This document shows, in pieces, positions 2,455 through 50,204 of a DNA stretch of 64,000 nucleotides. The DNA is from Coleophoma eucalyptorum (Eukaryota > Ascomycota > Leotiomycetes > Helotiales > Dermateaceae). Every line of letters begins with the position of its first letter. Position 1 is the first letter of the stretch. The translations under genes and the position numbers were made by a program. The notes under the pieces were generated by a model. The model worked only from the letters and a program-made list of their open reading frames with translations, ran no database searches and was not told where the DNA came from. The stretch is taken from the NCBI GenBank assembly GCA_026120035.1, contig JALRME010000007.1:124001-188000 (forward strand). Reading direction: 5' to 3'.

Positions 2455-5395
2455 TGAATTGAAATCATAAGATGCACATAGAATTAAAAAAGTTTATGGT
2501 TCCCGCCTTGCTGTAACTGACAAGCAGCTGATAGTAGTTGTGGACGAAGCAATATTAAGGAGTCAAGAACTTTGCTAAATCCGACGCTCCCGGCATCAAC
2601 TCCATTATCGTGTGGGGACACCCAGACCCCAGCGTGGAAGAGTGAAAGACATCATCCGTCTCCACTGTGCGTCTTGTATACCGTGATAATGATGTATTGT
2701 CTTCTTACCCTAGGTCTCAAGACCTTCCTTGGGCACCCTGAAATTATGAATTACAACTTGCTCATTGGTGTTAAGCGGTATCGATCTAGCTATGCTCAAA
2801 TGACTGAAGTTAATACTCCAGAGTTCTCCGTGAGCTCTTTTATCGATGCCGAATACCAATTTGAGACGATCAATTTCTTCGCACGATCTTCTCTACCGAA
2901 TTATTCCAGAATTTTGCTGGAACAACAGAATCAGAATCCGGGCTATAATCCTCTCTTATAAATGCTCAATCACAGGAAATAAAACTTATAGCGCATGTAA
3001 GCAGGCCAAAACAGAGACAAACTTCCTTTCCGACTTTGTTTATACTTTCTGTACAATAACTTGCCAAAGGGATTGAACAATAATATGTTGCTGAAACTAG
3101 AATGATTGAAGCTACTTTCACATCGTGCGATTGCTTCTACAACCGCTCCGCGGTTCCCGACTGGTCAGCCGTCGGATCCGCGGCACGTCAGAGGATACCA
3201 CTGCCGTCTACATTAACCTGAAAGGTATGACGAAAACCAAGCCTTGGGAGTCCCACTCATCATGCATTGCACTGGTGTTTTACAATGTGGGACCTGGTCT
3301 AGGTTCAAGTAGTCCTCGTCACGTGCTATCTGAAGTCATCGACGCACTGTTCCGTGCCTTTTGGATTGGCGAGAAACCAATTCAACTTCCACATACTTTC
3401 AGAAGCGTTCTATTCGATATTTCAGGCACACTGCTGTTAATAAGGATAGGAAAAATGGTAACAATTTCTTATGCTCCTTGCCCGCGAGATAGCTTGGCGG
3501 TATAATTGGTTGATCGAAGCACAGCTTTGCGGCACAACACTAGTAAAGCAGTAGAGAATGGAGCTTGTGGCTTGCCCTAGATGAGCGCCATAAAGGCGGG
3601 TGAACACGAGGGGTAGTGTGGGCTTGACTATATGAGACAAGTTGCTGCATTCCTTAAACTTCAGAGACTCCCAACCTCACCATAGATATCCTTCCGTGGA
3701 ATGCTCAAGATGATTAATCCAGAAAATATTTTCTTTAGTTGAACTGATTAGGAATCTCTATTTAAGCCTCAATACCTAGTATTTCAATCGATGTCTAGTA
3801 GTACCCCCAGTGAAGCAAGGTCCCAATTAAATTCTAAATTTTAACTTTTCAAGGAATTTTTGACCTCCACGGAGGTTGCCAGATACTTAAATTCCATTTT
3901 TTGTCGATCATAATTCTCTCACGACGAGCAGACTTTCCCTCTTTCTGTCCATTGTCTTCAAGCTGAGCCTTGAAACGGGTCAATTTTCGATCTACCAATG
4001 AAGCCCACACCTCAAAACTTCTGCTGGCAATCCATCGAGATTAGATAACCAGATGGTATAACGGCCTGCTAATCACGCCCTGTTCCAGCTCCTCCACTAC
4101 CTGCCGGCCCGTCCCTATCGGGCTTATCTTAGCTTGACGCTCTTCTGGAGCGGAAAGTCCAAATTTAGCGCAAAACAGAAACATGGCATTGGGCCCTATC
4201 TAAAGGAAGGGATGCTTTTTGGTCGGTAGCATGGATAATCTTCGATATCCTCTGGCTATCTCTGTTTACTAGGTACAATGGTCACTGCGCTATTTAGCAC
4301 CATGATATGCTGGCATAAGTCTCGTCTGCATGTCGATGGTTGGCCGAATATTTTGTCAGGATTTCAACATTGTAATATAGGCTCAATCAAGATCAGAGCC
4401 TGCAATAGATTATGGTGAACCATCGATATATAAGCTCTGCGTTTAAAAGTGAGTCTCTATTGGGTGGCGGTGAGAATATAGTGCGTACAGCTATGTGCCG
4501 CACATGCTATGCCAATACCAACAGGGATGATTGGCATGCGGCCCTGGAGATCTCGGCGTTTCTTCAACTCAAGCTAGATACCAATTCAACTTAGATTGAC
4601 CCAGGGAGAGAACTTCTTGTTTGGCCTTTAGCATTTGTCCTTTAAGTACAGCCAGTCTTTTGGTTGAATTAAGCGTCATCGGCCGACTGGCAACAGATAC
4701 TTAATTCTGTAACCTCAAACATGAAATTCCCAAGACTTCTCAATTCCACAATGGAAACAGTAAAAGTTTTAATATAATAGCCTTTAGATAGACTGAGTAG
4801 TATTGATTCATGAATAGGCTCAAGTTGGATCACCTAGTTTCTTTGACCCCGATACTGATTCCCTACCTATTATGACTTTCTTGGCCGACCCCGCAGAGCA
4901 CTTCAACTTTCTGGGCTACTTGCCTAGCATCCTACATAGTCTCTTTCGTTGGACAGAAAAAATTCTTGTCCTAGGTTCTTATTTGGAAGGTTGCTGGTAC
5001 ATGCCTTGCTTCACAACAGCACCTTTAGATTAGAGATGGAATCCTGCTTGAGCCGCTCCACATTATTCTTGCTCTGTTACATGCGGCTATGAGTTCTCTT
5101 CACGTACATTCTGAGCAGGATCATACACATACGTACAACCACTATTGTTGTAGACAAGAAATTTATATTACATTTAATTGAGCAATTGTATGTCAAAAGA
5201 ATTAACGGATTCAATTTCAAGCTGAAAGGAAAGCACCCGACTAGACCACACGTAAATAAGTACACCTTCTTTGCTCCCTTTCTTCTTTATTCCTCTCAAT
5301 ACAACTTCAATATCTATCCTACCTGCCTACCTGCGCACCACGTCTTCAACAAGTTATATATCGGGGTGTTTGCAGACCCCAGAAGACTTCCTAAG
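2455..5395. other. long AT-rich intergenic region
   Basis: Nearly 3 kb with several short open frames (60-130 codons) on the plus strand, none with a signal peptide, a domain motif or splice partners. I see no transposon ends, rRNA or tRNA. A decayed repeat is possible but not demonstrable by eye. The part next to 2454 should contain the promoter of the upstream regulator. Confidence 0.45.
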
Positions 5396-37392: not shown

Positions 37393-38351
37393 CTAAATAC
37401 ACGAGTATGCTCCATCAACGATAATATTTGATCCTGTCATGTACGGGCATGCATCCGAAGCGAGGAACGTGTACAGCTTTGCACACCTGAAGTTAGCGAG
37501 AGTTCCGTGCAACATTGTAAATCAACCATACGTACAGCTTTGAGTTCCTCTGGTTTAGCAATTCGTTTTTGAGGAATCCCGGAAAGCCAGCTGTTTCTAA
37601 GGGGCTCTGCTTGATTCAACACCACTATAAAAACATGAAATTTTAGCAAAGGGTAACCAAAGATAAAAAAGGAGCTTGCGATCAGAACACAAATCCTAGT
37701 AGGGGCAATCGTACTCTCTGTGGCAATATAACCGGGTGAAACCATGTTCACTCGAGCAAATGGTGCCCACTCCATGGCCAAACATTTCCCCAAATGTGCA
37801 ACAGCAGCTTTGGATGCGTTGTAGGCTGCCTGCTCCTGTGGATAGTTGACCAGGACGGAGCTGACCGATGCGGTGATAACTAGATTGCCTCGACCCTGAG
37901 CTTTGAAGATTTTGCCCGCCGCTTGAGCCGTCCACATAGCACCATCGTAGTTGACGCTGTTTATGTGATGCCATGATTCCTCGGTATACTCCAAGTTTTT
38001 GATGTTGGAGCATACGCCGGCGTTGACCACAACAATGTCTAAATGTCCAAAGTCACGTGCAATGGTGTCGATGACGGTGGTAATGCTATCCCTAATGGTG
38101 ACATCGGCTCTGTAGGCTTTGATATGGACGCCATTGGCCTTTGCGATGCTGGCTGCCTTCTCCGGGGCATCCTCTGTTGTCCGATAGATCAGCGCGACAT
38201 CTGCACCGGCTTCAGCGAGCCCTTTGACAACCTCCAGTCCAATCCCCCGCGAACCTCCAGTCACGGCAGCGACTTTGCCCTTAAGCGAGAACTGGCTCAA
38301 AACATGTGCCGAAGCATCAGGAGCTGGTTGCTGGAGCTGTGAGATAGCCAT
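37393..38351 (-). CDS. short-chain dehydrogenase, mannitol/sorbose reductase-like
   Basis: Three exons (38351-37715, 37624-37536, 37476-37393) give 269 aa. The nucleotide motif TGGSRGIG, the NAG of VVVNAGV, the serine of ITASVSS and the YNASK pair form the complete SDR active site. The C-terminal blocks WLSGIPQKRIAKPEEL and FLASDACPYMTGSNIIVDGAYSC match fungal NADPH-dependent mannitol 2-dehydrogenase/L-sorbose reductase (Sou-like) enzymes. The reaction would be interconversion of a ketose and a polyol. The ATG at 38351 fits the usual start of the family; an in-frame extension upstream reads through what should be the 5' leader. The final acceptor is the second of two nearby AGs (CAAAG), chosen for frame. 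Confidence 0.9.
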
Positions 38352-40534
38352 TATGGGAATAAAATGGGTTGGACGAGAAGATGGGAGGTAGTGCAGATGA
38401 TTGAGGGTGAGTTCACAAAGTTGAATGGGAGAACTGGGCGAAATATAACGACCTTCACACCGTCTAAACTTGTGTCTGAGGTGCCATCGGTACCACGCTT
38501 TCAGCAAACCGAGATGAGGGTTGTTGACTCTCGAATAACCGACGGGTCAGTTCATTGGCCATTTCGTAAAAAGTTATCCATGGGGATATCCGAGCCTACG
38601 TGCTCAATTCACGCTCTTAGTCAAGCAAAATGCTAAAATTATTCACTGTGGGGAGAAACGGAACCCCATACGGAGCCTCGATGCGAGGACGAACCACCAT
38701 CCCCTTTAAGATACTCCCATCCTCTAAGAGTATAGATATTTGTTCTCAACTATTTTCATAGGTCGGTATCCTTCCTCAGTGTTCACGCATCTACACAATG
38801 CGCCATTAGGACGATATATTAGAAGACTAGCATAAAGCCTCCAAGATGCAAAATTCAGGTATAAGATGTCCGAGTCTACCCTTGTAATTTCCTCGGTCAT
38901 TAACAGAATCCATCCCATCCAGCCCTAGCAGCCAAAATGATATCAACACCGATGCTTTGGATGTCGTCTTACCATAGAAAGATGCGTTTCCCAACACACC
39001 ATTCTGTCATATTCATCCAAATCTATCACCCCATAGGTATCGATCAGCACGGCAATGGCCAGAAAGCCTTTCGGCTAGGAATTTGGGCGCGTCTCGGGTC
39101 CCAAGGGATCGGATCCAGATTCGCTCTAGCCCGTCCCGTGATTTCGGAATCCCAATCAGACAACCGACATCCGACATTCTGACCTCAACAGGACGGACAC
39201 CTTCCCACCCACTGGGTATTCAGAGTCCAGCTCCGTCACTCTATCACAATCCTCTCCCGCCTTAAGGTAGGGGCTCCCAAATCTCCATTCCAAATTCTGA
39301 ACTCCGAAATATCCTCGATAACCTGTCTGACTGCATCCCACCCAAGGAGATCCGCGGGACCGGGCCACCGTCAACTGGCTCCATGTACTCGTCCACCTGA
39401 TAATCCTGATGGGGGTGTCTTCATTCCACTCAAGTTGAAACTCGCGATCGTTAAACTCAGGCTGCTGCTACGGGTAAGGATATTCGTACGCTAACCAGGA
39501 TAAGCAAAGAAGTTCCTAAGCGTTTTAAGCATACGTAGTGTTGCATTCTTCGTCAAAGACTGCATGATTCTTCCTACGGGAAGGTTTGCACTACGGACTA
39601 TGTATTACACGAGCCGAACCGCAGAACAGTGGCTTGTATCCTGCAAGTGGAACGTCATCTATAAATCCAAATGCCAGTCTGTTAGCTCCGCCATACCAGA
39701 TCTGATCCTGCCGATGCTCTATGAGCATCTCACTGCTTATATTATGTAGTACATAACTTTGTTTATACTCTATTGTTCAAAGGAGGGGTATGTTACATTG
39801 AGGATAGGAGGTGAATAGGCTAGCAAAGATTAAATTTAGCCTCTATAAGGACTGCACTTGCGATTTTAGTGCACTGTTAAGAGATACAACCCAAATTCCC
39901 CGCAAGTTCTGACCAGGGAAGGGCCACGTGAATCAAAAGCAGCAGATCTATATTGGTCGGTTGTACACCGTATAACTCGGTCTATGCTCCTTGCATCGCA
40001 CAGGGTGAGATCGGTTCTCCCTCCAGAGTCCTAAGTCTGCTTAACCAGATCAAAATAAACTATATTATTCCAGAACCAGTTACGATTTGTTGGGCCTCAT
40101 ATGTGCGGGGCCGGTAGCTTCAAGGCAAAGAGCTTATGATGCTTAAGTTGCTTTTGTATATTGACTTGCAAAGGGAGAGAGTTCAAAGCATATGTACATT
40201 ATGATATCATCTTGATTTCCGTCCAAACTCTGTCTAGGTATTCCTTCATCGTTTGGATGCTCCAAATCGATTAACGAACTGGTTATAATTGACACTTGCT
40301 GCCCCATCATTTCAAGAGACCCTCATCTGCATCCTCATCTTCATCCTCATCTTCATCCTCATCTTCATCATTATCCTTATCTTATCCTTATCCTTGTCTG
40401 TATTGTTAAATCACAGCAACAAGAATACAGAATTATCCTATGTAAGAAGTCTTCATAACTTTTTTATAGCGTTTATACTAAAGCTATTGGGTCGAAGCCA
40501 TTTACGACTTACCTAGCTCAAGAAATCCTTCACT
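38352..40534. other. long intergenic region
   Basis: About 2.2 kb. Short frames at 38937-39374 lack motifs and are probably chance. Contains the SDR promoter at the left edge and, on the right, the promoter of the microexon gene with a CT-rich tandem repeat (40321-40395). No transposon ends found by eye. Confidence 0.45.
40321..40395. repeat. CT-rich 12-bp tandem repeat upstream of the microexon gene
   Basis: About four copies of CTTCATCCTCAT (40321-40370), followed by short TTATCC repeats to 40395, ending about 140 bp before the start codon. Pyrimidine tracts of this kind are common in fungal core promoters; repeat number could vary and modulate expression (inference). Confidence 0.75.
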
Positions 40535-41925
40535 ATGAAGCTTCAACAAATTTTTATTATCGCTAGTCTGTTAGGATTTAGCACCGCTATGCCAACCCAA
40601 GAAGATGTCAAAATGGTTCGAAACTTAGTCAACACTGATTGTAAAGAGGAGGGTGACCCATGTACCATTGTAGAAGTAAGTAGTATTCTATTATATCATG
40701 CCATGTCTTATTCATTTTATTGTGATAGGTCGATAAATTAGACGTACCTGGTGTATGCACTGTAAGTCCTTCCCCTCTTATTATACCACTATTAAAAGAT
40801 ATGAGTCTAAACAATGCTGGTGAATATAGTTGGTAAGACTTTACCTTGGTTCGGTTTATTATTTAAAATAACGTATCTATAATTAATGCTGGCAAATATA
40901 TAGGAAGTAAGTCCTTATTTTACTTTCAGCCTTTTATTAAAAAAAAGAATATATCTAATCATTGATACTAATGGGCATAGATTGTAAGTCCTTAGCCGCT
41001 ATTGATGTTCTACTAAAAGGCTATATCTCAAATTAATGCTCCTGGATATAGGATGTAAGTTTATTCCTTGCTTTTGGTCTGTTATTAGTAGTATGTATCT
41101 AATGATTGCTCATGGATTTAGGATGTGAGTCTTCACCCTACTGTGAGTTTATTAAAAAGAGATATCTCTAATTAATACGTATTTGATGGATACAGTTAGT
41201 AAGTTCTACCCTACTGTGATAAAAAAAGATATGCCTTTAATTATTACTAATAAATACATAGTATGTAAGTCTTTATCTTGCTTTGAGCTGCTTATTTAAA
41301 AGAGAATATCTCTAATTCGTACCAACGGATATAGCCCGTAAGTCCCTACCATGCCTATGATCCATTATACTACCAAAAGGATATATCTCGAACTAATGCT
41401 TTTGGATATAGTTGGTAAGTTTTACCCTACTGTCAATAAAACGGATGCATCTCTAATTAATAACGATGGATATAGCTTGTAAGTTCTTATCTTGCTTTTA
41501 GGTGCTTGTTAAAAACGATCATTTCTAATTCGAACTGATGGATATAGCCCGTAAGTCCTTCCCATGCCTATGGTCTATTAATACTATTAAAAGCATATAT
41601 ATCGAACTAATGCTCCTGAATATAGGCTGTAAGTTCTCACCCTACTGTTAAGAAGATATATCTCTAATCACTATGTATTGGTGGATATAGTTTGTAAGTT
41701 TTATCCTATGGCTAGTTATTAAAAAGAGATATCTCTAATTGCAACGGATTGGTGGATATATAGTTTGTAAGTTTCACCCACCTAAATTTACCCTTGGAAG
41801 GATACATCTTTAATTAATGCTGATATTTATTAAATATAGGTCGTAAGCTTTCACCTTTCTATTTGTTTACCGATAGTAGAACACACCTCTAATATAAATT
41901 TACGATATAGTGCATTACTGCATAA
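40535..41925 (+). CDS. small secreted four-cysteine protein encoded by 18 exons, fifteen of them 3 nt
   Basis: Exon 1 (40535-40675) encodes a signal peptide (residues 1-18) and Cys36 and Cys43. Exon 2 (40729-40761) encodes eleven residues ending with Cys57-Thr. Then come fifteen phase-0 exons of exactly three bases, starting at 40830, 40904, 40981, 41052, 41122, 41196, 41262, 41335, 41412, 41476, 41548, 41626, 41691, 41764 and 41840. Their codons give L, E, I, D, D, L, Y, P, L, L, P, A, F, F, V. The last exon (41911-41925) encodes C, I, T, A and a stop. Total 234 nt, 77 aa, cysteines 36, 43, 57 and 74. All array donors are GTAAG/GTGAG and all acceptors end in AG after a CTAAT-like branch site. 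No family recognised; small size and paired cysteines suggest a secreted effector-like or defensin-like peptide. Splicing is inferred, not shown. Confidence 0.72.
40762..41910 (+). repeat. tandem intron array (16 introns, 61-75 nt each)
   Basis: The region is a diverged minisatellite in which each unit is a complete intron plus a following triplet: donor GTAAGT, a CCTAC/CTTGCTTT-type middle, an A-rich stretch with ATATCTCTAATT (branch site), then GATGGATATAG. Lengths in order are 68, 71, 74, 68, 67, 71, 63, 70, 74, 61, 69, 75, 62, 70, 73 and 68. The block 41265-41478 (three introns plus three triplets, 214 bp) is plainly duplicated as 41479-41693 (215 bp). Confidence 0.88.
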
Positions 41926-42607
41926 CGAAACAGTAAGTTTTAATAACGCAAAAATACTTATGAAGAGTTATACTCTTGTAAGTAGTATAGTTAACTATGG
42001 CTAGATGCTTCATCCTGATTCTGCGTTTATTACTCTGAGCGATGGTTTTGCCTACCGGGTTTCCCACGCTTATAACGCGAATGCGAGAGTAGTATAATTT
42101 ATACATAAAAAAATATATTTCAATTCTTGATTCGGGGGAGATTAACAGAGGTGACACTGACAATGTATTGACTATGTAGAGTGAAAGTAAACACTGCCTG
42201 GAAAGCCCCTCTGCATGTTGTGCCTGTCGCATGGTGACACGACCATTTACTTTCAACATATCAGGCGGCAAGTAGTCATAGTATGTTTACGTTAGGTATC
42301 ACTTACGAATTAATTTACTTCAGATTTTGTCATTATTAGAGTTAAACTAGAGATTTCATGTTCTTTTGCGCTCTCTTTCAAGGCCAAATACCGAAAGGAC
42401 AAGTCTTGGTGAAGTCTTCACGGTCACTAAAATCTCCCTAGTCTGATAGTGCTGATTTCAAGCACGATGCCACAGAGGTCTTATTCACATCTATAAGAGG
42501 GAAGTATTATGACTCGGTCTTGACATTTCATATCTTGGAGAATCACGTTATCAAAGAAGAGTTTTTTAAATTTGTAAAAAGACATCATTAAAATACAAAA
42601 GCAGGTG
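41926..42607. other. intergenic between convergent genes
   Basis: About 680 bp between the microexon gene and the 3' end of the next gene on the minus strand. One further GTAAGT at 41932 has no convincing downstream partner. No gene seen. Confidence 0.5.
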
Positions 42608-44089
42608 TTAATAACCGTACTTATGTACCCTCTCTGTATAGGCTTCAGCTACTTTGGGGTCTACGCTTTTCAGCGCCTCCTGAGCTGCCGCCAATTGTTT
42701 TTCATCCTCTGGGATTTTCTTCTGCGACTTCTCGAGGTCTTCTACAAGTTCCTTCCTATACTCACTCGGGTCTTTACCGTCAGGAGTGCTACCTCCTGCA
42801 TCGATGCTTGCAATCTCTTTCATCTTTCTTAGTACATTTTCGTGGTCCCACCTAAGCCATGACTCAAATTTCTTGACTTCTCGAAATGGCTGTTCAGACT
42901 CAAAACGGACGCTTTCCTCTTCTTCTAATTGAGCACGAGCAGCCAGGAAGGCGTCGTGGTCAAATGCCCCAGGCCAACCATTCTCGCGGTAAAGGCGTGC
43001 AAGATTATCTCCGTCGAATCCTCCGAGAAAAACATCTCCTGGCATCCACTCTAGGTTGGTGAATCTTTGAATGTAGTCTTTGAGAGCAACTCGTGCTGGT
43101 CTTGAAGGGCTGGAATTTATTAGCAAAAAAACACAAATTAGAGTGTTCATCAGGGCCATACTAATTATCCAATGAATTCTCATTGTTAGATATCTCGGTC
43201 TCCAAGGGCTTCAGCGTCGGATCGGCATTTCCGTCTATCTGGTTGATGGTCCAAAGTTTGTCTACAAAAGATTAGTCAAATTTTACTTCGTCCTTTACAT
43301 CGGCCACGTACAGTTTTGTAAATTCAATATCATGGCAGAACCATGATTCCCCATATCCGAGAGCTGGACATAGTCCGGCTTCATGTACTTTCCTCCAGGT
43401 TCATCAAACCCGGGAGTGTCTTCGTTGGACCCCAAGGCATAGAAAGGATCAACAGTGCTTTCCAATCCGCCGTCTTGCCTCAAGTCTAACATGCATCCAT
43501 AGAGTAGAAACTCGTTGTTCTCGGTACCGCGCATCCACTCGTCCTCGTATGACTCGTCATACAAGTTTAGGTAGGGTAGCATCTGCATGAACTCGATGGC
43601 CTTAGGAGAATAGCCTAATGATTCTGCAAGAGTAGTATTGATACCAGGTGTGTGTGGGGCGCGAGCGATAATGCGAGCATCATAGTAACCCATCTTCGCA
43701 AGTAATTCGTATAGCTCACCCATGAGGTCAGCAATCTCCTCTGACGTCTGCGGGTGAGTGAAAGCCTCGAAACTATCCACAAAGGTACCAGTTACGGAAC
43801 TATACGTCTTGAAAAAAGTCGATGTCGCTAGCTCAACAACATGTGAGCCTTTGTCCTCTACAAAGCCGACGGTATAGAAGATAAACATATATACCCCGGC
43901 AAAGTAGCTAAACAAGAGCCAGAAGACGAAAACCTTTTGCAACCGATTCAATTCAGCCCAGCGTTTACGTTTGGGTTTTTCGCTTGATTGGCATTTGCTT
44001 TCTGGTTGCATTAGAGGTCGAGATTGATCTTCAGGTTGTTGAGCTTCCAGATCGAGACTTCCTGACGGTCTCTCTAGCTTGGTGTCCAT
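42608..44089 (-). CDS. hypothetical single-pass membrane protein of a fungal family
   Basis: Three exons (44089-43312, 43261-43162, 43109-42608) give 459 aa. A charged cytosolic N terminus (about 50 residues) is followed by one strong membrane span, VFVFWLLFSYFAGVYMFIFY. A long extracytosolic part follows, with motifs seen in many fungal hypotheticals: YVQLSDMGNHGSAMILNL, LWTINQIDGNADPTL, YRENGWPGAFDHDAF and WLRWDHENVLRKM. The last 70 residues are charged and helical, probably coiled coil. The two halves look like separate genes if the introns are missed, but both joins are in phase and the summed length divides by three. No enzymatic motif; not a UstYa/DUF3328 protein because the HxxHC motifs are absent. 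Function unknown. Confidence 0.82.
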
Positions 44090-44546
44090 GGCCAACCGTC
44101 CTGAGAACCTAACAGGCCCCGTTACCAACTCACAAGATTTGATGTCAACAATCACTTGAAGGAAGTGGCTAACATGATCAATAGGACTATGTGTATGTGA
44201 TGATTCTATTAAGAGCACCCAGACCACAAAATAAAGGGGGCTTCGAGGCAGCATCTCTTGTGGCGCAGCGGGCCTTGAATAAAATTGATTGCCCTGTTGC
44301 CTAATCGGGTTAATGCCCGACATGATGTCACAAGACTTCTGTCAGGTGACCATGCACTCATTCACTCTGGTGATTCAGACGATGCATTCTATAATGCTTA
44401 TTAAGCTATAACTTATCTCTTTTGTATCGACTTCCTTGGATAATTAGGGTTCTGTAATTTCACAGCATAAACTTCTTCATTGACTGAGCAATATTCGATT
44501 TTCCAATTATCATCTGCAATGCTTTATTCATTCGGGTGCCTTATGG
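44090..44546. other. intergenic, no gene seen
   Basis: About 460 bp between two minus-strand genes. An open extension of the membrane protein's frame up to 44323 is probably its 5' leader. Confidence 0.5.
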
Positions 44547-45944
44547 TTAAAAGGCCCATGCATGCATATCTTCAATCATCCCAACAGCTTTGCCATCTTG
44601 CTTCCAGACCCTAGCATCTTTCATTACAAATGACACCTTTCTCAGCGCTTCTTTGTCAGACCTGGGGTCGGCATCTAACGCAATAATGTCTGCGCGGACG
44701 CCTTCCTCGAACCAGCCAAATCTGACCCCACAAAGATTGCCACCGCAAGCTTCCCATCCCCCAAGCGAGCATGCTTCAAGCACTGCTTCGATCGGAACTC
44801 CAGATTCCGCCATCAATTCCATTTCACGACAATTTCGTCCGTGTCCAACTATTACACATCAGCTAAAGCCAAAAGATAAAGGTCATAAAAGCATACCGGG
44901 CCCAGTATCTGCGCCACATGCCAGTCGAACTCCCATGTCATAAGCCAACTTGACCTGCGCTTTTATATCCGAGAAGCGTTTGGCATGGAGAACTTCACAG
45001 ACCCCAAGAGTTGGCACAAATACGCATTTGTTCCTTTTCATGGCTTGAAATAGCTCCTCGTTCGCATAATAGGCATGCTCGATAGTATTGACTCCCGCTT
45101 CAATCGCCATCAATGCCCCTTCGAGAGTGCCGCAGTGACAAGCAACCGGTGCTTTGGCTAGTTTTGCTTCGCTTACAATCATATTCATCTCCTCCTGCGC
45201 AAATACCAAGACATCAGGATTGGGATCCTCGGGCAAGTGCTTGATGTCAGCAATGTATGGATGTTGCTGATATGGCGGGAATCGCATAACCCTGCGTCGG
45301 TAGTCGGCGAAGAACTTAATCACATCAGCCCCAGCAGCAATGCGACGTCGTACTGCACTTCGTGCACTTTCCGGCCCATCCACTGCTTCACCTCCAGCCG
45401 GAAGACAAGTATGCTCGCTTTCAGTTCGAGGCTCGTAAGATCCCGTACTGGCAAGAACTTTGGTGGCAACAAATAGCCGCGGTCCTGGTATTAGCCCTCT
45501 GTTGATGGCATCGCGCATGTTCGCATCGCTGTTTCCCATTGATTCAGAGCCAAGATCCCTTTGCACTGTCAGCATGATACCTTTCCACTTCAATTGAAAG
45601 AAGTTTCACCTATATGTAGTATAGCCAGCAAGCAGGGCTGTACGGCAGTGGTTGGCCGCTCGCAGAATCCTCTCCACCACACTCTCATCGCGTTTCTGGT
45701 TCACAGATGGTCGCTCTCTGTAGTCATGGAGGAAGATGTGTGTATGTGCGTCAACGAATCCCGGCATCACGATCTTGCCTCGAAGATCAACATCTCCTTC
45801 TGGAACATTTTCTCCGAGTTCCTCTGATCTCTCCGAAACTTCGACAATAGCTCCAGTGCTTGGATTGACCGTAATTGAAATGTCTGTCAAGAAAGCCTTC
45901 TTTTTTGGATCGAAAAGTGTTGACGTATGTATCTTGAAGGTCAT
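44547..45944 (-). CDS. amidohydrolase (imidazolonepropionase/prolidase-like)
   Basis: Three exons (45944-45610, 45558-44897, 44848-44547) give 432 aa. TIM-barrel amidohydrolase marks: VMPGFVDAHTHIFLHD (first metal His pair), GADVIKFF (lysine position), VACHCGT and NTIEHAYY (further His ligands) and the Asp of LACGADTG. The last exon gives VGHGRNCREMELM and the C-terminal barrel-closing beta sandwich GVRADIIALDADP. Members of this clade hydrolyse cyclic amides or Xaa-Pro dipeptides; the native substrate is not predictable. It is divergent from a Dal5-type transporter, which suggests an uptake-hydrolysis pair (inference). Confidence 0.89.
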
Positions 45945-49091: not shown

Positions 49092-50204
49092 ATGTCTGCA
49101 AAGCTTTCCTCATCAGTGACAATGGAGCACCCCATTGTGAAAACAGTCCATTGCTCCGGCTCCCCATACGAGATTGGCTTCACACATGGAAGTTGTGCTT
49201 CAACAGAAATCCACAACAACATCGCCACCTACACTTTCTTCTTTGCCGAAACAGCTAAGATTACTTGGTCCCAGGCTCGTCTACGAGCGACACAATTCGT
49301 CCCAACTCTTCAAGAAAAGTACCCGGAGATACTCGAAGAAATGAAGGGCATTGCTGATGGGGTTGGATCTGGACTGGTTATGGAAGATGTTCTTGCACTC
49401 AACGTCCGTAGCGAAATTGCCCTGACGAACTATTCAGACGGGTGTACTGCAATCGCTCAAATAACCTCTGCTAGCAGAGCATTCCTAGCACAAAATTGGG
49501 ATTGGTTAGCTGAACTGAATGCGGGCATGGTGTTCTTGGACATCAAGCCGGCAGGCCAAGACATCACTATGAAGTTTCTCTCTGAAGCCGGCCTTGTGGG
49601 AAAATATGGGATGAACTCGTATGGGTTAGGATTGGTGACAAACGCATTACGGTCAGGGTCTATTAACACGACAAACTTCCCGGTCCACGTAATGCATAGG
49701 AAGATCATGGAAAATGCGAAAACTTATGATGAAGCAGTTGCTATCATTGAGAAATATGGGCTGGCATGCACTATGAATTACATTATTGGAGACAAGCATG
49801 GAAATTTTGGAAACATCGAATGCTCACCTTTGGGGAATACCATCACCCTGCCTGGAGTGGACGGTTTTGTCGCTCACACGAACCATCTATGCGGGATAAA
49901 TCGTCCAGCAAATCTTCGAGACCACCCTTCGCCAAATTCGTTTTCGAGGCTGGAGAGAATCAAGGAGTTGACGGAGTTGGACAAAGTTAGAGGAGTCGCT
50001 GCATCGTTTCAGAGTATTAGAGCAAGATTATCGGACGAACAGGGCTCTCCTTATTCAATATGTCGAGACAGACCCCCAGGAGCTGAGGGTATGGAGAAAA
50101 TGACAACCTTGAGTACAATCATAATGGATCTGGCAGCTTCTACAGCAAAGATCACAATTGGACGACCCTGTGACGATCTACCTGTTATTGAATGGTCTTT
50201 TTAG
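49092..50204 (+). CDS. acyl-CoA:6-aminopenicillanate acyltransferase-like Ntn hydrolase (C45)
   Basis: A 370-aa intronless protein of the PenDE/C45 family. These proteins cleave themselves before a cysteine that becomes the N-terminal nucleophile. The expected site is the Gly117-Cys118 pair in YSDGCTAIA, at the same relative place as Gly102-Cys103 in PenDE. Further family marks are SPYEIGFTHG near the N terminus, FLAQNWDW, GLVGKYGMNSYGLGLVTN and FVAHTNHL. No peroxisomal SKL-type C terminus is present (it ends EWSF). Fungal relatives outside penicillin producers are common and hydrolyse or transfer acyl amides. It neighbours an SDR and a CYP504-like P450, suggesting a small aromatic/acyl-amide pathway (inference). 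A second Met at residue 11 is an alternative start. Confidence 0.9.
   Translation: MSAKLSSSVTMEHPIVKTVHCSGSPYEIGFTHGSCASTEIHNNIATYTFFFAETAKITWSQARLRATQFVPTLQEKYPEILEEMKGIADGVGSGLVMEDVLALNVRSEIALTNYSDGCTAIAQITSASRAFLAQNWDWLAELNAGMVFLDIKPAGQDITMKFLSEAGLVGKYGMNSYGLGLVTNALRSGSINTTNFPVHVMHRKIMENAKTYDEAVAIIEKYGLACTMNYIIGDKHGNFGNIECSPLGNTITLPGVDGFVAHTNHLCGINRPANLRDHPSPNSFSRLERIKELTELDKVRGVAASFQSIRARLSDEQGSPYSICRDRPPGAEGMEKMTTLSTIIMDLAASTAKITIGRPCDDLPVIEWSF

Follow-up and report, generated by a model that had tools for sequence, protein, structure and literature searches.

Tandem arrays of predicted single-codon exons in three genes of Coleophoma eucalyptorum

A predicted secreted-protein gene with an intron-rich block

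The window analysed here is a 64,000-nt stretch of C. eucalyptorum DNA (assembly GCA_026120035.1, contig JALRME010000007.1, positions 124,001 to 188,000 of the forward strand), and positions in it are counted from its first letter. As read from the sequence, a gene on its plus strand comprises two leading exons separated by an intron, an array block, and a short last exon. Its predicted parts are the following.

40535..40675, plus strand: exon 1, 47 codons, beginning MKLQQIFIIASLLGFSTAMPTQ... and holding Cys1 and Cys2
40676..40728, plus strand: intron 1, 53 nt, GTAAGT...TAG, outside the repeated array
40729..40761, plus strand: exon 2, 11 codons (VDKLDVPGVCT), ending in phase 0 and holding Cys3
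40762..41910, plus strand: array of 16 related introns (61-75 nt) with 15 exons of 3 nt between them
40830..40832, plus strand: single-codon exon TTG (L)
40904..40906, plus strand: single-codon exon GAA (E)
40981..40983, plus strand: single-codon exon ATT (I)
41052..41054, plus strand: single-codon exon GAT (D)
41122..41124, plus strand: single-codon exon GAT (D)
41196..41198, plus strand: single-codon exon TTA (L)
41262..41264, plus strand: single-codon exon TAT (Y)
41335..41337, plus strand: single-codon exon CCC (P)
41412..41414, plus strand: single-codon exon TTG (L)
41476..41478, plus strand: single-codon exon CTT (L)
41548..41550, plus strand: single-codon exon CCC (P)
41626..41628, plus strand: single-codon exon GCT (A)
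41691..41693, plus strand: single-codon exon TTT (F)
41764..41766, plus strand: single-codon exon TTT (F)
41840..41842, plus strand: single-codon exon GTC (V)
41911..41925, plus strand: last exon, TGC ATT ACT GCA TAA (CITA and stop), holding Cys4

The predicted spliced frame stays in phase 0 throughout and is 234 nt long including the stop, giving a product of 77 residues that starts with the signal-like MKLQQIFIIASLLGFSTA (a secretion signal judged by eye, without a program) and has the Cys3-Cys4 interval LEIDDLYPLLPAFFV. A preliminary description of this DNA had reported fifteen AG-NNN-GTRAG sites with their triplets, phase-0 flanks, and an open frame of 234 nt. All 15 sites and triplets were recovered exactly where it had placed them, and the flanks and frame (77 residues and a stop) are borne out by the sequence.

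Exon 1 matched nothing in the genome at E <= 10 except itself, and a word-based search needing three shared 5-residue words returned no homologues of exons 1 and 2, so conservation of the secreted protein has no support. A Pfam scan of the product detected no domain, and thus no HET domain, and no known RNA family reached its gathering score within 39800-42600. A pyrimidine-rich CCTCAT/CTTCAT tandem repeat at 40321-40394, which lies about 140 nt ahead of this gene's start codon, could be promoter-related. Three neighbouring genes might belong to one biosynthetic cluster.

37437-38507, minus strand: short-chain dehydrogenase
44883-45593, minus strand: amidohydrolase
49092-50204, plus strand: acyl-CoA:6-APA acyltransferase family (AAT)

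The spacing of the array sites is highly specific. Within 40701-41960, no sites were found at any other spacing from 0 to 11 nt. Over the whole plus strand of the window, the array holds 15 of the 22 sites with 3-nt spacing, and other spacings gave 3 to 12 sites each. Outside the array there are seven 3-nt sites on the plus strand and six on the minus strand, or 13 in 128 kb over both strands. Given this background of about one site per 10 kb per strand, the whole genome should hold about 0.0005 runs of four with intron-like spacing, a value estimated from the site rate with no simulation. Since even a run of four would be that rare, the run of fifteen is not due to chance. A slightly looser pattern likewise gave no run of at least two sites 45-120 nt apart on either strand of the rest of the window. 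The units are tandem copies that have diverged to a mean pairwise identity of 0.64 (14 internal introns, 61 well-occupied columns); because they were copied from one another, they share an origin, and the 15 sites do not represent 15 independent events.

Two further arrays in HET-domain genes

The same genome (45.26 Mb in 101 contigs) was scanned for two consecutive TAG-NNN-GTAAG sites, which yielded 40 matches, with 1 in the reversed control. Ten were in the window, and 30 fell on the minus strand of another contig, here called C57 (43282-45808). A corresponding scan with a CAG acceptor gave 5 matches (control, 3), two of which lay about 190 nt apart and marked a third, shorter array on contig C46.

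C57 about 43291-45807, minus strand: 38 predicted single-codon exons and 39 introns in a HET-domain gene
C46 213568-213888, minus strand: predicted exons TAT, AAT, GAC, and CTC with five introns of 49-74 nt

The 38 C57 sites comprise 36 of the strict form and 2 with a GTAAAT donor, one of which also has a non-YAG acceptor, so some units may be weak. By eye, the C57 introns bear no relation to the window introns. Two of them, introns 10 and 22, match perfectly over 71 nt, and the first and last introns have unique outer ends and repeat-like inner ends, so that the array looks as if it had grown inside one ordinary intron. On its 3' side, the sequence continues in phase 0 with NEPWIYYLDEQFCC..., followed by one ordinary intron and then a HET domain (Pfam E 2.4e-31). 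The start of this gene is uncertain, with the closest upstream reading being MYAILHFRD in phase 0. The exon before the array ends in TTTCGCGAC, which equals three consecutive array codons (TTT CGC GAC) in phase (reverse strand 2992-3000 of locus L032, C57:39000-48900); random 9-mers occur in the joined C57 codons at 37 per 100,000. This match, a single post hoc observation, possibly stems from intron loss via a spliced intermediate. For the exon after the array, no further match was found in the genome. No copy of the joined C57 codons turned up either, though in a search of this kind an empty result carries no weight.

HET proteins form a large family, and the C57 HET domain had 1013 matches. 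Among the best 120 of these, the two top-scoring named ones came from Xylaria arbuscula (63%, covering 80% of the query) and Ustulina deusta (59%, covering 89%), with a Coleophoma protein (62%, covering 70%) and others close behind. Residues 1-115 of the C57 product gave 13 candidate homologues, none at E <= 10. By eye, P0001, P0007, and P0008, predicted HET proteins of other fungi that match this domain, start just before it and are without the N-terminal segment on the array side; their gene models may have overlooked N-terminal exons.

The C46 introns look unlike each other, yet the exons between them are exactly 3 nt long. On the 5' side lies an open frame of 364 codons with a protein-kinase domain (Pkinase E 2.9e-21), which ends in phase 0 at the first donor. 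On the 3' side, a 125-codon open stretch runs in phase 0 from the last acceptor. Further on, a HET domain (E 7.8e-27) lies in another frame, an arrangement that implies at least one more intron between them. The locus is apparently a kinase-HET fusion gene. The segments just 3' of the C57 and C46 arrays resemble each other weakly (16 of 50 residues identical; pairwise E 0.005 with composition adjustment off), and the two arrays may therefore be equivalent in position within related proteins. All three arrays are bordered by an open frame on either side.

Additional scans of the genome gave little beyond these loci. The pattern GTAAGT-N38..68-TAG-NNN-GTAAGT had 38 matches (control, 6), of which 37 were in the two long arrays and 1 was isolated, and its version with a 6-nt exon had 0 matches (control, 7). 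Scans for TAG/GTGAGT arrays (0 matches; control, 0), strict CAG/GTAAGT arrays (0; control, 1), and GTATGT donors (2 isolated matches; control, 5) found no others. Around single matches (loci L038, L069, and L072-L075), there was no run of at least three sites. Two-site runs were seen at L069 (GGA, TCA), L073 (ACT, TAA), and L074 (TAA, TGA), and 3 of these 6 triplets are stops. Since all of these scans demand consensus donors, shorter or weaker arrays would escape them, and three arrays is a lower bound.

Splice signals and codon variability

The sequence that the window units have kept is concentrated at putative splice signals. All 8 invariant columns of the unit alignment (8 of 10 with slightly different unit ends) lie in the acceptor, donor, or branch motif by our own assignment, most of them being the AG that precedes the codon, the donor that follows it, or branch-motif bases. 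Of the 16 window introns, 13 have a CTRAY branch motif close to their 3' end, compared with 2.8 expected, and none of 500 shuffles reached 13. The motif was also found in 33 of 39 C57 introns and in all 5 C46 introns, counts that again none of 500 shuffles reached. GTRAGT donors are carried by 14/16, 33/39, and 5/5 introns of the window, C57, and C46 arrays, respectively, and YAG acceptors by 16/16, 38/39, and 5/5. The array introns therefore have the sequence characteristics of U2-type introns, namely, a GT donor, an AG acceptor, and a CTRAY branch motif. If the introns were retained, 12 of the 16 in the window would introduce a frame-0 stop. Seven folded sequences, namely, 5 of the 16 window introns and 2 stretches of C57 whose limits do not coincide exactly with intron ends, showed no more RNA structure than shuffles (z, -0.83 to 0.72).

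Two properties of the triplets were considered as evidence for coding and set aside. The preliminary description had pointed out that none of the fifteen is a stop, which is true but carries no weight, given that a stop-free set arises by chance with P of ~0.33 from intron triplets and 0.55 from shuffled bases. The same holds for the 38 C57 triplets (P, ~0.24 from intron triplets), and absence of stops was rejected as not significant. The residues K, N, Q, S, T, G, C, W, and M are missing from the 53 codons of the two long arrays; this bias is weak against a background of equal base composition at each position (P, 0.06 and 0.03), and N does occur in the C46 array.

A more informative pattern emerges when codons are compared with the introns around them, most clearly in C57. 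Mean identity in that array is 0.86 over 63 intron columns and 0.44, 0.26, and 0.73 at exon positions 1, 2, and 3, with 2, 0, and 11 of the 63 intron columns, respectively, being more variable. Expressed as pairwise difference, positions 1 (0.56) and 2 (0.74) vary four to five times as much as the intron mean (~0.14), and position 3 (0.27) varies about twice as much. The third bases are 32 C and 6 T, all mutually synonymous, and only seven residue types occur among the 38 codons (pN, 0.573; pS, 0.371). Among pairs of C57 units with no more than one difference in 36 flanking intron bases, compared without alignment and with splice-site letters included, 21 of 33 encode different residues, a description rather than a test since pairs share members and are not independent.

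The window array is less distinctive. Identity at its exon positions is 0.27, 0.35, and 0.31, with 1, 8, and 4 of 61 intron columns more variable, respectively, and in an ungapped comparison 0.53 of flank sites outside the consensus differ versus 0.69 in the exon. Furthermore, pN (0.69) is about equal to pS (0.68), and the third position is without bias. Given this, together with the variable intron columns, it is C57 that carries the coding signature. When three columns are averaged, the exon surpasses in variability all 59 intron windows in the window array and all 61 in C57 at two gap settings, and at a third setting one intron window per array is not exceeded, although intron alignments optimized for identity exaggerate this contrast. 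Two-column intron windows as variable as exon positions 1 and 2 numbered 1, 1, and 3 of 60 (window array) and 0, 0, and 1 of 62 (C57) at the three gap settings. Codon identity was nearly uncorrelated with identity of the adjoining introns (r, 0.15 and 0.06 in the window array; 0.12 and -0.04 in C57).

Variation in C57 is what would be expected of a translated phase-0 codon under diversifying selection, as judged from a comparison of variability and not from a formal selection test. We infer that the triplets reach the protein and that selection diversifies them, with the introns serving as homology for recombination. Alternatively, the third position of C57 could be held by a requirement of splicing at the final base of the exon, and the splice sites of this array could be kept just because the copies are recent.

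Interpretation and comparison with known systems

The window probably contains a gene for a small four-cysteine protein, predicted to be secreted, whose Cys3-Cys4 interval would be assembled from fifteen single-codon exons that arose through unit duplication and selection on codons. Single-codon exons, as put forward in the preliminary description, remain the best reading of the block: splice signals are kept despite divergence of the units, CTRAY is present in 13/16 introns, two more arrays exist, and the codons are variable. Splicing itself is predicted. The accompanying proposal of peptide diversification is supported as well, most clearly by the C57 array, where codons are more variable than introns. 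Its restriction to a secreted peptide was too narrow, since the other two arrays, C57 and C46, belong to HET-domain genes. The presence of three arrays in one genome suggests that proteins can be built and varied by single residues, a mode that had so far escaped notice.

Other origins of such a block must also be considered. It could be a tandem repeat within a single large intron, removed either by joining the first donor to the last acceptor or stepwise by recursive splicing, with the triplets absent or occasional in the mRNA. The flanking exons would remain in frame with all triplets dropped, and the part-unique, part-repeat end introns of C57 look as if that array grew in an ordinary intron. 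However, unused sites would not be expected to keep their splice signals in 15 of 15 window units while the rest stands at 0.64 identity, nor does a large intron readily account for triplets that are more variable than the introns or for a third base that varies only synonymously in C57. In addition, the C46 exons are exactly 3 nt long even though the introns between them are mutually unlike. We therefore consider a single large intron unlikely. The least plausible origin, in our estimation very improbable, is a degenerate or noncoding locus (a pseudogene) in which the tandem introns are fossils. Such decay would fit a secreted protein that has no homologue in the word-based search and no Pfam domain, as well as the one or two weak units of C57, but frames are open on both flanks of all three arrays, and the HET and kinase domains near two of them are still recognizable.

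Diverse exons beside similar introns also fit, at first sight, an invasion by introners, in which mobile intron copies would have entered successive codon boundaries of an old exon and codon diversity would be that of the old coding sequence. Introner-like elements (PMC4457414) as well as proliferating stwintrons and introns (PMC8469720) have been described in fungi. Such an invasion should leave near-identical copies at unrelated gene positions, yet BLAST of the genome against itself with the window array and 1 kb of the C57 array found no copy outside the arrays, within a search that scored the best candidates alone and skipped very common words. Furthermore, all 38 C57 codons have C or T as their third base and specify just seven kinds of residue. 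The exon downstream of the array in that gene is not of this sort, and the codons thus look descended from a repeated unit rather than from an ordinary exon. The tandem order, common strand, and block similarity (C57 intron 10 matching intron 22) fit local duplication, and we regard invasion by introners as quite improbable.

Short fungal introns are recognized across the intron, so a 3-nt exon need not bind factors on both sides together if the introns leave in order. In the mechanism we propose, each short intron would be recognized as a unit and removed largely in 5'-to-3' order, with every step setting one more codon beside the next donor. Since every exon is 3 nt long and in phase 0, any exon skipping would keep the frame, and partial isoforms may be tolerable or useful. 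At the DNA level, the unit of ~70 nt (codon plus intron; about 64-78 nt) would duplicate in tandem and pair with its neighbours, such that introns supply homology for unequal exchange and conversion and codons move as cassettes. Every exchange event would add, drop, or reshuffle single residues with all recombinants in frame, and selection would prefer different residues at each codon. The resulting payload would be a peptide of rapidly changing length and sequence, which in the secreted protein would form a loop that is probably closed by a disulphide.

An exon of 3 nt is regarded as being at the limit of what splicing can handle. If spliced, 15 and 38 consecutive exons of this size would severely test, in nature, both intron-defined splicing and the use of a donor three bases past the preceding acceptor. 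If also translated, the arrays would be a repeat system in which recombination acts on introns and selection acts on single codons. They would tend to be overlooked by gene finders and short-read aligners alike.

Among the matches listed in our searches of open-access literature, none describes a gene with an array of single-codon exons, which does not prove that no such description exists. The components are known (tiny exons, short U2 introns, and homogenized repeats with selected codons), and the whole is without a known described match. Aphid (gall-forming) bicycle genes encode secreted proteins from many small exons; these exons are larger than one codon, unlike those of the arrays described here, and we know of no tandem intron repeat in them. 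The micro-exon genes (MEG) of Schistosoma mansoni likewise encode secreted proteins from many tiny exons, mostly multiples of three and mostly 15 bp, with a minimum of 3 bp according to the abstract or 6 bp according to the text and with introns of 0.1-5 kb (PMC10526429). The window gene would share with them frame-preserving tiny exons after a signal-like start, here 15 predicted exons of 3 nt in phase 0. It differs in that the predicted array exons are all one codon, array introns are 49-95 nt and form tandem copies in the two long arrays, and the organism is a fungus rather than a worm.

Exon size alone does not argue against splicing, as a single-nucleotide exon with read support has been reported in a fungus, in Fusarium CYP621A (PMC12940212), and another in Arabidopsis APC11 (PMC4674806). 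Each of these is one isolated exon per gene, neither part of an array nor hypervariable. Adjacent short introns in complex arrangements that are removed in consecutive reactions are described for the stwintrons and sister introns of Hypoxylaceae (PMC8469720 and PMC9024468). In stwintrons, a splice signal is split and no exon lies between the introns, whereas donor and acceptor are uninterrupted in all 16 window introns, and a triplet separates each intron from the next.

A parallel to the HET-domain arrays is found in fungal recognition genes. The HNWD proteins het-d and het-e of Podospora anserina carry a HET domain. Their WD40 repeats are homogenized by exchange while a few codons are under diversifying selection, with four strongly selected codons (7, 9, 25, and 27) in the WD40 unit (PMC1805685 and PMC12222747). 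The arrays resemble these genes in having tandem repeat units in recognition-type genes, with a HET domain in C57 and C46 and codon hypervariability in C57. It is conceivable, and we suggest this tentatively, that spliced codon arrays form a novel class of genes for generating diversity, with each recombining ~70-nt repeat contributing one residue to a fast-varying recognition surface, both in intracellular HET proteins of self/non-self recognition and in a secreted loop bounded by cysteines. If true, they would supply fungal HET-type genes with variable residues in a new way, the best-described system there being one that uses protein-coding repeats. The WD40 repeat is protein throughout, whereas the repeat described here spans about 64-78 nt, of which one codon would be protein and the rest intron.
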